Assembly: GCF_900114435.1 (NCBI RefSeq)
Contig: NZ_FOZK01000003.1
Coordinates: 124,001 to 188,000, forward strand
Length of the DNA: 64,000 nucleotides
Source of the DNA: Halomicrobium zhouii
Lineage (GTDB): Archaea; Halobacteriota; Halobacteria; Halobacteriales; Haloarculaceae
Direction of reading: 5' to 3'
The notes below the pieces were generated by a model, which saw only the letters and a program-made list of their open reading frames with translations, did no database searches and was not told where the DNA came from. A program made the translations under genes and the position numbers. Below are positions 4,183 through 26,648 of the stretch, piece by piece (the stretch's first letter is position 1; each line of letters opens with the position of its first letter).

Positions 4183-5013
4183 ATGGATACGGATCTCCGC
4201 AGCACTGTGATTCACGTCCTGCGTTCGATACTCGCGCTCGTTTCGTCGGTCTTCCTCGGGGCGGGTGGACTTTTACTCGGTGCCCTCCTCTTCACCGCGA
4301 CAATCTTCCTCGCGGGGGTCGAGTCGCCGGCGGTTGTCATCGTCCTCAGTCTCGTATTCGTCCAGGGTGTTGGCTGTATCGGCGTCGCGCTGACCTATAT
4401 CAGGCTTCGTCCGGTGGTCACCAGCGTTATCGGAGACGTACTTGGCTATCCGGAGTACGTCCGCGACTTCTCCGTCGACGCTACCGTTCCGGACTTCGAG
4501 GGGTGGGCGATAATCGTCGCTGGCTACGTCGTCGCGCTCGGGTCAGCGTTCGCGGGAGCCACAATCGTCTCACAGTTCCAGGTCGAAACCGGACAGAACG
4601 CCGCCGCGGAGATCGGAATGGAGAACCCCGAGGTACTCCTGCTCCTCATCCCGGCCTCGATATTGTTGATCGGCCCCGGTGAAGAGCTCCTCTTCCGCGG
4701 TATCGTCCAGGGGCGACTTCGCGAAGTTTTCAGTCCCATCTCGGCGATTCTGGTCGCGAGCTTCGTGTTCGCGATGCTCCACTGGTTCGCCCTCAGCGGT
4801 GGGTCACCCACCGGCAACCTCGTCGCAGCTGGACTCTTGATCGGTCCCGCGATCGTCCTCGGCACTGCCTACGAGTACACTGACAACATCGTCGTCCCGT
4901 CGCTAATCCACGGAATATACAACGCAACGCTGTTCACACTGCTATACGTGGTCATCGCGTTCAGCGACGTCCTCGACGAAGCGGCGCCGCAGATGCTGGT
5001 CGTCCTCGCGTAG
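4183..5013 (+). CDS. CPBP-family intramembrane metalloprotease (CAAX protease/Abi type)
   Basis: This is a 276-residue polytopic protein with the complete CPBP active-site signature: EELLFRGIVQGRLRE (E167, E168, R172), FAMLHW (H200) and LIHGIYNATLF (H243, N247). The glutamates and histidines should ligate a catalytic metal inside the membrane. Eukaryotic relatives cleave prenylated CAAX proteins, but archaeal substrates are unknown. A TTGTTTTCAC box near 4148 fits a leaderless ATG at 4183. It faces, convergently, a gene for a protein of the same fold that lacks these residues. Confidence 0.9.
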   Translation: MDTDLRSTVIHVLRSILALVSSVFLGAGGLLLGALLFTATIFLAGVESPAVVIVLSLVFVQGVGCIGVALTYIRLRPVVTSVIGDVLGYPEYVRDFSVDATVPDFEGWAIIVAGYVVALGSAFAGATIVSQFQVETGQNAAAEIGMENPEVLLLLIPASILLIGPGEELLFRGIVQGRLREVFSPISAILVASFVFAMLHWFALSGGSPTGNLVAAGLLIGPAIVLGTAYEYTDNIVVPSLIHGIYNATLFTLLYVVIAFSDVLDEAAPQMLVVLA

Positions 5014-22843: not shown

Positions 22844-23932
22844 CTACAGCGACTCCGGTTCGATCCGGTCGACGTAGCGCCGCGTGAGCGCGTACAGCAC
22901 TACGGCGACGAGCACGTAGCCGAGAACGTGGCCGTACGTCGTCGGCGTCGGGCTGTCGATGGCGAGTTTCGCCGCCGTCGTCGCCGGGTGTTCGGGGAGC
23001 AGCACGGCGCCGCCGAAGACGACGAGCGTCACGACGGAGTACAGCAACTGGGCGGGCCGACGGCGACCGAGGTGGAGTCCCAGCACGACGCCGAGGATGA
23101 CGACGACGGTCGCGATGGCCGTGACGAGCGTCAGCGTCCACAGCGGGTTCGCCACCGCCGTCCCGTTGACGGCCAGCAGCAGTATCCACAGCGCGGCCTG
23201 GGCCGGCGCGAGCAGTATCATTCCCAGCGCCTTCCCGTCGACGACGTCGACGAGCGATATCGGCGCGACGCGGAGCAGTTCGAGCGTTCCGCGCTCTATC
23301 TCCTCGGTGACGCTGTCGACGGCGACCGACCCACTGATGAACGGTGGGAGGAAGAGCAGGAGAGGAATGAGGACCGTGTAGGTGAACCCGAAGTAGGGGC
23401 TGGCGTTCGCCTCGGGCGGCAGGGGAATGGGCTTCTGTTCGAGGTTGCCCCGCCGCTCGACGCGCTCCTGGCGCTCCAGCGTCTTCAGGACCTGTCGAAC
23501 CTGGACGACGACCACCGTGGTCCGGATGCTCCCGTCCGGCACCGTGGCCGACACCTGTATCACCGACCCGCCACCCTCGGCCGCGGGCGCGCTAGTCGCC
23601 GTCAGTACGGCGTCGACCTCACCCCTGTGGAAGGCCTGCATGGCGCCCGCTGGCTCCTCGTAGCCGACCGGCGTCGCGCCGGACTGGCGCTGGACGGCCT
23701 CGAAGAGCGCCGATTGCTGGTCGCCCGAGACGCCGATTTCGATCTGGCCGGCCTCGACCGACCCAGGGTCGTACAGCGACGTGAGACCGACGACGAGGAA
23801 CGACGAGAACGCCGCGACGAACAGCTGGATCAACAGCGCGAGCACGATGGTCTTCTCCCGCGACAGCGACGACAGGTCGCGCCTGGCGACGACGAGCCGC
23901 GGATCCCACGACCGACCGGGTCCATCAGACAA
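22844..23932 (-). CDS. ABC-2-type transporter permease (NatB-like)
   Basis: The 362-residue permease has an N-terminal membrane helix (TIVLALLIQLFVAAFSSFLVVG), a large extracytoplasmic loop (about 60-180) and five C-terminal helices with the ABC-2 signature VTEEIERGTLELLRVAPIS. It overlaps the upstream permease-protease gene by 8 bases and is the third gene of the ATPase/permease set. The set resembles NatAB-type exporters for Na+ or lipophilic compounds; the substrate is unknown. Confidence 0.87.
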   Translation of the reverse strand: MSDGPGRSWDPRLVVARRDLSSLSREKTIVLALLIQLFVAAFSSFLVVGLTSLYDPGSVEAGQIEIGVSGDQQSALFEAVQRQSGATPVGYEEPAGAMQAFHRGEVDAVLTATSAPAAEGGGSVIQVSATVPDGSIRTTVVVVQVRQVLKTLERQERVERRGNLEQKPIPLPPEANASPYFGFTYTVLIPLLLFLPPFISGSVAVDSVTEEIERGTLELLRVAPISLVDVVDGKALGMILLAPAQAALWILLLAVNGTAVANPLWTLTLVTAIATVVVILGVVLGLHLGRRRPAQLLYSVVTLVVFGGAVLLPEHPATTAAKLAIDSPTPTTYGHVLGYVLVAVVLYALTRRYVDRIEPESL

Positions 23933-25751
23933 GGGTGGTCACCACCGCGTAGTTGTAGGCGAAGTGTATCGCCATCGCCGCGAGGACGGCGACGGCGTAC
24001 TGCTGTTTGCCCTTGCGCGCGCCGAGCGACGAGACGCTCGCCGTCACGACGTGGAGAGCGAGCGGGGCGAGTAACAGCGCCGCGACGAGCAACGGACCGA
24101 GACCCTCTGGGACGTTGCTCCCGACGAACGCCGCCTCGCCGGTCGATACTTTCTGCAGGTCGGCCAGTTGCGCGATGAGCGCGAATTTCTCCGCCAGGAA
24201 GAATCCGACGCCGCTCAGCGCCCCCACCACCAGCGCCGGGCGAAGGCTCCGCGAGTACCGACCGCTCGAAAAGCCCGCGTAGAGGTGGAGGCTCTTGGCC
24301 ACCTCCTCGATGACGACGACGGCGAGGAGCACCAGCGGGATCGAGATCTCCTGTAGCGCGAACAGCATCGCGACCGCCGCGAGTTCGGCGACGAAGACGA
24401 ACGGGAGGAGCAGCGCCGACAGCTTCAGCGCGCTCCACTTCGAGAATATGCGGCCAGAGAGCGAGTCGAGCACCTTCAGCGGGATGGGTCGCTGGGTGAA
24501 CATGTCCTCCTCGCGATAGAGCCCGGCGCCGAGGCCGAAGAGGACGGCAGCGGTCAGCGTCGGCGGCGTCACCGAGAACGCGAAGTTCAGCAGCGATATC
24601 GACTGTCCCTGCAGGTCCCGGACCACGATGGTCAGCGGCGAGATGAGCGCGATGGGGTTCACCTGGGTGAAGATGGCGGGGACGAAGGCGTAGCTCGTCA
24701 GCGAGACGGTGATGGTCACGGTGACGAAGGTGAGTTCCTTGAACGAGCGGGCGAACATCGCCCCGCAGAACGTCGCCGCCAGGAACAGCGCCGCGAGGGG
24801 CAATACGGCGAGTACCGCGACGTGACTCCCGCTCGGTGCGATGCCGCTGAACCTTAGCGCGAGCGTGATGGCCGTGACGACACCGACGGCGCCGAGGAAG
24901 TACGGCAGCGTCTTGCCCGCGATTATCTCGGCGCGACTCGCCGGCGAGACGAGCAGCAGTTCACCGCGGCGCTTGAGCCGCTCGGAGAGCATCGTCGACC
25001 CGTAGGCCTGGATGACGAAGTTCAGCGGGACGACGAAGAGGAAGGCGAGCACCAGCGACTCGAAGGGGAACGGCGGCTGGATGTCTGCCGGCGTCCCGCT
25101 CGTCGCGCCGCCGGTCAGCCCGGCGCCGAGACCGCCGAGCGTTCCGGCGGCGTCCTGGTCTGTAGCGGACGTTCCGGTCCCGCTGGAACCGGAACCGGAT
25201 CCGCCGCCCGAGTCCCCTCCGTCGCCACCCGAGCCGTCACTGCCACCGCCGCTGCCATCGGCGGTCCCATCGTCCCCAGTCGCGAGGCTCTCCTCGACGC
25301 CGCTCTGCTCGACGTACAGCAGATCGACCGAGACCGGGTACGCCGCACTCGCGTTGTCTTCCTCGGCCATCCGGCCCTCGTTGTAGCCGTCGACGGTGTC
25401 CCGGAACTCCGACTGAGCGGCGGACCCCTTCGGCGTCCGCGAGCGGTCGACGAGTGCGGTATCGACGAACAGCAGTTCTTGCTCGCCCCGATAGATGGCC
25501 GGTTGGCTCGGCGGTACCGTGGCGAACGTCGGGTCGTCGGCCGCCGGGCCGTAGTACGGGCTCGAGTGGTCGACGCCGACGCGGTAGATTCCCGAGTCGA
25601 GTCCGGCACCCGCACCGCTGACCGCCAGCGCCGCGACCAGTCCCATCCCGACGACGGCCAGCACCATCACGGCGACGGTTCGCCTGTCGACGCCGCCAGC
25701 GTTCTTCGTGACCTCCCAGCGCGCGATCCGCAGGAGTCGTCGCCCGTCCAT
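23925..25751 (-). CDS. Fusion of an ABC-2 permease with a PrsW-like membrane protease domain
   Basis: This is a 608-residue protein. The N-terminal part (1-about 450) is an ABC-2/NatB-like permease: helix 1 near residue 25, an outer loop with a Gly/Ser-rich linker (about 165-215), then helices including MLSERLKRRGELLLVSPASRAEIIAGKTL. The C-terminal part (about 460-608) has the PrsW pattern: EEVAK (E482, E483), GFFLAE (E521), LALHVV (H567) and AIHFAYN (H596). PrsW proteins are glutamic or metallo intramembrane proteases. It starts directly after the ATPase stop. The link between transport and proteolysis is inferred from the fusion. Confidence 0.8.
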   Translation of the reverse strand: MDGRRLLRIARWEVTKNAGGVDRRTVAVMVLAVVGMGLVAALAVSGAGAGLDSGIYRVGVDHSSPYYGPAADDPTFATVPPSQPAIYRGEQELLFVDTALVDRSRTPKGSAAQSEFRDTVDGYNEGRMAEEDNASAAYPVSVDLLYVEQSGVEESLATGDDGTADGSGGGSDGSGGDGGDSGGGSGSGSSGTGTSATDQDAAGTLGGLGAGLTGGATSGTPADIQPPFPFESLVLAFLFVVPLNFVIQAYGSTMLSERLKRRGELLLVSPASRAEIIAGKTLPYFLGAVGVVTAITLALRFSGIAPSGSHVAVLAVLPLAALFLAATFCGAMFARSFKELTFVTVTITVSLTSYAFVPAIFTQVNPIALISPLTIVVRDLQGQSISLLNFAFSVTPPTLTAAVLFGLGAGLYREEDMFTQRPIPLKVLDSLSGRIFSKWSALKLSALLLPFVFVAELAAVAMLFALQEISIPLVLLAVVVIEEVAKSLHLYAGFSSGRYSRSLRPALVVGALSGVGFFLAEKFALIAQLADLQKVSTGEAAFVGSNVPEGLGPLLVAALLLAPLALHVVTASVSSLGARKGKQQYAVAVLAAMAIHFAYNYAVVTTLV

Positions 25752-26648
25752 CTAGACCTCCTCGACGGTGCGTGCGTTCGGCGTCGCCGACTCGGCGACG
25801 TTGAGGAACACCTCTTCGAGGCTCGACTCTTCGGTCCGGATGTCGATGACTTCGCCGCCGCGGTCGTTCGCGACCGCTCGCGTCGCGTCGACGCCGTCCA
25901 TGCTGTCCACGACGCGACACCAGGTGCCGCTCTCCTCGACGGCGTCGGGAACTTCGACCGTCGTGTAGACGCGGTACCGTCGCTCGCCGTACTGGTCCTG
26001 GAGTTCCTCAAGGTCGCCGCGCGCGACGATCTGGCCGTCGTTCATGATAGCGACGCGGTCGCAGATAGACTCGACGTGGAAGAGATTGTGGGCAGAGAAG
26101 ACGATGGTCTTGCCCTCCTCGGCCAGCTGTTCGGTGAACTCGATGACGTAGTTCGTCGTCAGCGGGTCCAGCCCGCTGGCCGGTTCGTCGTAGATCAGGA
26201 CGTCCGGGTCGTTGATCAGCGACCGCGCTATGGCGACCTTCCGCTTCATCCCCTTCGACATGTCGCCGAGCTTCCGGTCGTGGTGTTCGAGATCCAGCTT
26301 TTCGAGCGTGTCGAGCATCCGCTCCTCGGCGACGTCGCCCGGTACCTCGTAGAGGTCGGCGAAGAACTGCAGGTAGGATATCGGCGTCATCTCCTCGTAC
26401 AGCGGGGATTCCTCCGGCAGAAAACCCAGTTGTTTGCGCATCTCCGGATCAGACGCGTCGAAGCCGGCCACGGTAGCTTCCCCGTCGGTCGGTTCGAGCA
26501 GGCCGGCGAGCATCTTCAGCGTCGTCGTCTTCCCCGCGCCGTTGGGACCGATGACGCCGAACACCTCTCCCCTGTCCACCGAAAACGTGCTCCCCTCCAC
26601 CGCCACGAAGTTCCCGTACTCCTTGCGTAGTTCCCGCGCGTCGATCAT
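25752..26648 (-). CDS. ABC transporter ATP-binding protein (NatA-like)
   Basis: The 298-residue ATPase has Walker A GPNGAGKTTTLKML, Q-loop GFLPEESPLYEEM, a variant signature MSKGMKRKVAIARSL (usual for NatA-type ATPases, in place of LSGGQ), Walker B DVLIYDEPASGLDP, and switch His in VFSAHN. About 70 C-terminal residues form a regulatory extension. It is the first gene of a three-gene operon with a permease-PrsW fusion and a second permease; the three lie end to end with no gap or slight overlap. Confidence 0.92.
   Translation of the reverse strand: MIDARELRKEYGNFVAVEGSTFSVDRGEVFGVIGPNGAGKTTTLKMLAGLLEPTDGEATVAGFDASDPEMRKQLGFLPEESPLYEEMTPISYLQFFADLYEVPGDVAEERMLDTLEKLDLEHHDRKLGDMSKGMKRKVAIARSLINDPDVLIYDEPASGLDPLTTNYVIEFTEQLAEEGKTIVFSAHNLFHVESICDRVAIMNDGQIVARGDLEELQDQYGERRYRVYTTVEVPDAVEESGTWCRVVDSMDGVDATRAVANDRGGEVIDIRTEESSLEEVFLNVAESATPNARTVEEV

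Follow-up and report, generated by a model that had tools for sequence, protein, structure and literature searches.

A PrsW-type protease domain fused to an ABC-2 permease in haloarchaea, methanogens and their relatives, with a possible role in cutting and exporting membrane peptides

A three-gene transporter unit with a fused protease domain

We analysed a window of 64,000 nucleotides from Halomicrobium zhouii (contig NZ_FOZK01000003.1, positions 124,001 to 188,000) and found a tight unit of three genes on its minus strand. The middle gene (23925–25751, minus strand, 608 amino acids, ATG start) encodes an ABC-2 permease fused to a PrsW-type intramembrane protease domain, as judged from the ORF, its homologues and an AlphaFold model with a mean pLDDT of 82. 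Directly upstream, with zero gap, lies the gene of a DrrA/GldA/NatA-like ABC transporter ATPase (25752–26648, minus strand, 298 amino acids; PF00005, 1.4e-29; DrrA-like, 1e-71). A second ABC-2 permease gene (22844–23932, minus strand, 362 amino acids; PF12698, 3.5e-16) overlaps the end of the fused gene by 8 bases. These two neighbours are ordinary by Pfam. An earlier note, made from the letters of this DNA alone, had described the fused ORF, both neighbours and the EEVAK, GFFLAE and histidine motifs; all of these hold, and its residue positions are exact.

The same note assigned the first 450 residues to an ABC-2 permease. The ABC-2 fold stands, but its extent is nearer to residues 1–420 (24492–25751, minus strand). 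VIA-align structure matches over residues 2–420 of the model include NosY (Z 17.5, 209 residues, 3.1 Å) as well as ABCA and ABCG transporters (Z 15–18). The fusion thus combines the membrane fold of an ABC-2 permease with a co-encoded ATPase. As a single sequence, the fused permease scores 22 bits against PF12698 (ABC2_membrane_3), below the gathering score of 31.6; this shortfall reflects how sensitive a single model is, not a trait by which the group is defined, and the fold evidence outweighs it. With an E threshold of ≤ 0.001, a Foldseek search with the full-length fusion model found nothing. A linker (residues ~150–220; 25092–25304, minus strand), proposed earlier as Gly/Ser-rich and extracytoplasmic, sits in the large loop that joins TM1 to TM2. 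It is rich in Gly, Ser and Asp, acidic, variable and disordered in the model (pLDDT <50 for most of it), and its predicted location is indeed extracytoplasmic. Most likely, the ATPase and two different permeases make up a heterodimeric ABC-2 exporter, and the fused protein is half of it.

Family and conservation of the protease domain

We then investigated the C-terminal domain (residues 421–608; 23928–24491, minus strand), whose assignment draws on PF13367, hhalign and a domain model. The PrsW profile PF13367, with a curated cut-off of 23.5 bits, scores the fusion at 28.8 bits when the genome is searched and at 30.1 bits when the domain is scanned in isolation; of 41 orthologue domains, 27 match it with an E-value of 1 or lower. 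Scanning the whole protein against Pfam as a single sequence missed PrsW, which the isolated domain found. When 71 fused domains were compared by hhalign with 25 stand-alone archaeal PrsW proteins, all from one phylum, the profiles aligned over 121 columns (Prob 96.7, E 3.7e-10), with the EExxK, GFxxxE, H and HxxYN motifs in register. The PrsW similarity claimed in the earlier note is thus borne out by profile searches.

EEVAK (residues 482–486; 24294–24308, minus strand) places E482, E483 and K486 in the first motif helix, in agreement with the EExxK motif as defined in PMC4602095. It is followed by E521 of GFFLAEK (24189–24191, minus strand), by H567 (24051–24053, minus strand), the counterpart of the conserved histidine in helix 5 of PrsW, and by the H596-xx-Y599-N600 motif (23952–23966, minus strand), which corresponds to HxxxD in helix 6 of PrsW. 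At E482, E483, K486, E521, H567 and H596, none of the 82 homologues compared (41 haloarchaeal and 41 others) differs, so that orthologues retain the Glu/His pattern; Y599 is kept in 80/82. The final HxxxD position is N, sometimes D, in the fusions, and N is also found in archaeal stand-alone PrsW. Ten positions of the domain are at least 97% conserved (E482, E483, K486, F517, E521, K522, P563, H567, H596 and Y599), and all ten are motif residues or their near neighbours. Since the median identity of the protease domain between haloarchaea and the others is about 29%, such motif-only conservation is an enzyme-like pattern, indicating a selected active site rather than a structural remnant. In one non-methanogen family (L164, L169, L171 and L173–L176), the fusions are shorter, about 520–550 amino acids; the loop between E521 and H567 is largely missing and every motif residue is kept. 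The mcrA gene is absent from the five tested genomes of this family.

Modelled alone, the protease domain has a pLDDT of 89. In the PDB it is closest to APH-1 (three matches, Z 10.3–10.7, the top one with Z 10.7 over 149 residues) and next to a chain of the BOS complex (Z 9.9), although a Z near 10 in a helical protein is by itself not decisive. Rce1 also matches, at a lower score (4cad; Z 6.0 over 133 residues). Published work assigns APH-1 and Rce1 to the PrsW superfamily (PMC6588880, PMC4602095). Both resemble the domain in fold and have other partners, APH-1 in gamma-secretase, where it is not itself the protease, and Rce1 as the CAAX protease. No match was obtained when solved structures were searched by sequence with the domain profile, or when the domain was compared with viral structures. 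Charged residues place loops 412–442, 495–503 and 574–583 on one side of the membrane (positive) and loops 467–473 and 529–552 on the opposite side. This fits a protease domain that starts in the cytoplasm and crosses the membrane five times, the crossing count being uncertain because the domain model joins the first two helices.

The domain shares with the PrsW family (PF13367, MEROPS M82; for example, Bacillus subtilis PrsW) EExxK, the GFxxxE glutamate in the next helix, a histidine in the following helix, HxxxN/D in the last one, the helix order and an above-cut-off score. On the other hand, the domain in the window is fused to an ABC-2 permease and belongs to its own clade. The DxxxxEP, DG and EN motifs, invariant in the 25 archaeal stand-alone PrsW proteins, are lacking in the fusion, which has R-P or similar at DG and EK for EN; the EP region is not alignable. 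Because these motifs are absent, the fused domains are a sister clade rather than canonical PrsW. Judged by sequence, the domain is a member of the PrsW superfamily lying outside the canonical stand-alone clade.

Two other assignments were rejected. Membership of the CPBP/Rce1 family is contradicted by the lack of a PF02517 match and by an hhalign probability of 2.9 with six CPBP sequences; 11 other ORFs of the genome pass the PF02517 cut-off, and the fusion is not among them. One CPBP/Rce1-type protease gene lies in the window itself (4636–4926, plus strand; PF02517, 68.2 bits), and the genome contains 11 CPBP/Rce1-type genes above the cut-off and two stand-alone PrsW genes. NF041647 (ABC_perm_CPBP) likewise describes an ABC permease that ends in a glutamic-type intramembrane protease, but that protease is of the CPBP type, and the fusion in the window, of the PrsW type, scores only 10.8 bits against an equivalog cut-off of 435. 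The two are apparently separate fusions. The unfused second permease (22844–23932, minus strand) fits NF041647 better than the fused permease does (34.1 vs 10.8 bits).

Distribution, descent and gene linkage

The fusion was found in 203 of the 293 sampled genomes of the order and in 208 of 393 sampled genomes of the phylum, a few weak partial matches included. About 30% of the sampled haloarchaeal genomes gave no match, so the fusion is not essential everywhere. Outside the haloarchaea, 23 of the 30 fusion-carrying genomes contain the methanogenesis gene mcrA. Thus, the fusion occurs both in methanogens and in non-methanogens of the phylum. Genomes with several divergent mcrA copies suggest that alkane oxidisers possibly carry it as well.

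In the protein tree, the sequences from haloarchaea group together with full support, as vertical descent predicts, and conservation across the phylum is apparently vertical. The fused protease domains and the stand-alone PrsW proteins fall into separate clades (100/99 support), a topology compatible with a single fusion event. Plasmid copies are nearly absent, with one record. One orthologue was examined for its annotation (WP_227356692.1, from a Haladaptatus plasmid), and it is named only ‘ABC transporter permease subunit’. Among the open-licence papers searched, none on a PrsW–ABC permease fusion was found.

We then compared the genetic loci. The ATPase gene adjoins the fusion in 75 of 77 haloarchaeal loci (contig-end loci excluded) and in 17 of 20 others, and the second permease gene does so in 78/79 and 20/20 loci, respectively. 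In 16 of the 20 non-haloarchaeal loci, the ATPase gene is inverted; because its linkage is kept despite this inversion, the association has outlived rearrangement. In addition to a full operon (L061), Halorussus salinisoli has another copy of the fusion that stands alone, with neither the ATPase nor the second permease (L054, 6001–7932).

Beyond the three transporter genes, no substrate or regulator gene is generally conserved at the loci compared, and the commonest further neighbour family occurs at 9 of them. Aldo/keto reductase, polyketide-cyclase-like, flavin reductase and other genes are each found beside a minority of the haloarchaeal operons, and in some methanogens the genes near the fusion encode a DUF11/BatD-like surface protein or PEGA proteins. 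The operon of one methanogen family precedes genes for a large DUF11/BatD-like surface protein, anchored in the membrane at its C-terminus, and for a small membrane protein (L186, 6794–8992; L188, 4646–6912; L190, 6620–8879). This surface protein is a possible partner or substrate. Since no substrate gene recurs, the gene for the substrate probably lies away from the operon, or the substrates are many.

A possible cut-and-export mechanism and its alternatives

Gram-positive bacteria pair an intramembrane protease with an ABC exporter: Eep or RasP acts first and PptAB or EcsAB follows, and lipoprotein signal-peptide fragments and short hydrophobic peptides are thereby processed and released (PMC7157817, PMC7564271). 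Those proteins are encoded by separate genes, and Eep and RasP are zinc site-2 proteases unrelated to PrsW; we claim no homology. Because of this pairing, we propose cut-and-export by an exporter with a fused glutamic-type protease of the PrsW/CPBP/APH-1 superfamily, with a probability of roughly 0.45. A membrane-embedded peptide, such as a signal-peptide remnant, a released transmembrane segment or a short hydrophobic peptide, would enter the protease domain and be cut near mid-membrane by E482 and E483 with E521, H567 and H596. The attached ATP-driven exporter would then extrude the fragment, and one complex would merge the two steps that are split in Gram-positives. We infer by analogy the catalytic activity, the peptide substrate, the direction of transport and the coupling of cutting to export. 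The lack of a recurring substrate gene, the broad conservation within a single clade and the active-site pattern favour a general role on membrane peptides, and general clearing would suit the first two of these observations better than one dedicated peptide. The interpretation in the earlier note is thus partly supported: the architecture stands, and the proposal that the transporter may sense or cleave a membrane protein or peptide during transport fits the evidence by analogy.

Alternatively, the domain might cut a membrane-anchored regulator whenever the transporter is engaged, the ABC part serving as the sensor. The known role of PrsW is of this kind, namely site-1 cleavage of the anti-sigma factor RsiW in Bacillus (PMC4602095, PMC3482391), and the passages of PMC3482391 on which we draw describe bacterial PrsW domains fused to PilZ, FHA and cyclic-nucleotide binding domains. 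The operon conserves no regulator gene, the commonest extra neighbour family being restricted to 9 of the loci compared, and we consider such transport-coupled signalling rather unlikely. The classical sigma/anti-sigma pairs of the PrsW/RsiW pathway are not known to occur in archaea. The same passages of PMC3482391 also describe PrsW–toxin fusions, in which PrsW is likewise a fused module, proposed for export and processing; they list toxins, PilZ, FHA and cNMP domains as partners and mention no ABC permease fusion.

An APH-1-like scaffold without catalytic activity, which would stabilise the permease or recruit the substrate, would account for the closest solved fold being that of a non-protease subunit (Z 10.7) and for the absence of two motifs, DG and EP, that stand-alone PrsW carries. 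APH-1 has the same fold and yet is a scaffold, and fold alone is thus no proof of proteolysis. However, the EE pair is kept in 82/82 fusion homologues, while the APH-1/PrsW relatives show QExxR as well as EExxR (PMC6588880), and the catalytic set comprises the most conserved positions of the domain; a mere scaffold is therefore unlikely, in our estimate less probable than signalling. The DrrA-like ATPase, together with the link of CPBP-type relatives to bacteriocin processing (PMC9263693, PMC4602095), might instead point to self-protection: antimicrobial peptides (halocins, for example) or drugs would be pumped out, and any that lodge in the membrane would be destroyed by the protease. Typical resistance genes are distributed differently from this broadly and apparently vertically conserved operon with its single plasmid record, which makes this role improbable. 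Only the missing PrsW match in the whole-protein Pfam scan speaks for a plain ABC-2 exporter whose membrane helices resemble PrsW by chance. This explanation is effectively refuted by the above-cut-off PF13367 scores of the isolated domain and the genome search, the hhalign profile comparison, the fold match and the invariance of all motif residues, and it is hardly credible.

Returning to cut-and-export, its wider form would be an archaeal machine of ancient origin in which a single complex links intramembrane proteolysis with ATP-driven export, and which cuts and expels membrane peptides in haloarchaea, methanogens and their relatives, either clearing signal-peptide remnants or releasing peptide signals. 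We advance this wider form tentatively, as a possibility less probable than the mechanism itself. The existence of a separate ABC–CPBP fusion family and the pairing of separate proteins in Gram-positives suggest that joint action of intramembrane proteases and ABC exporters is a more widespread arrangement. According to PMC9263693, archaeal PrsW-type proteases have no known natural targets. The presence of the protease–exporter fusion in genetically tractable genera such as Haloferax offers a direct way in, and point mutations could separate cutting from pumping. The finding bears on the disposal of signal peptides and other fragments embedded in archaeal membranes, and on whether archaea release peptide signals from them.
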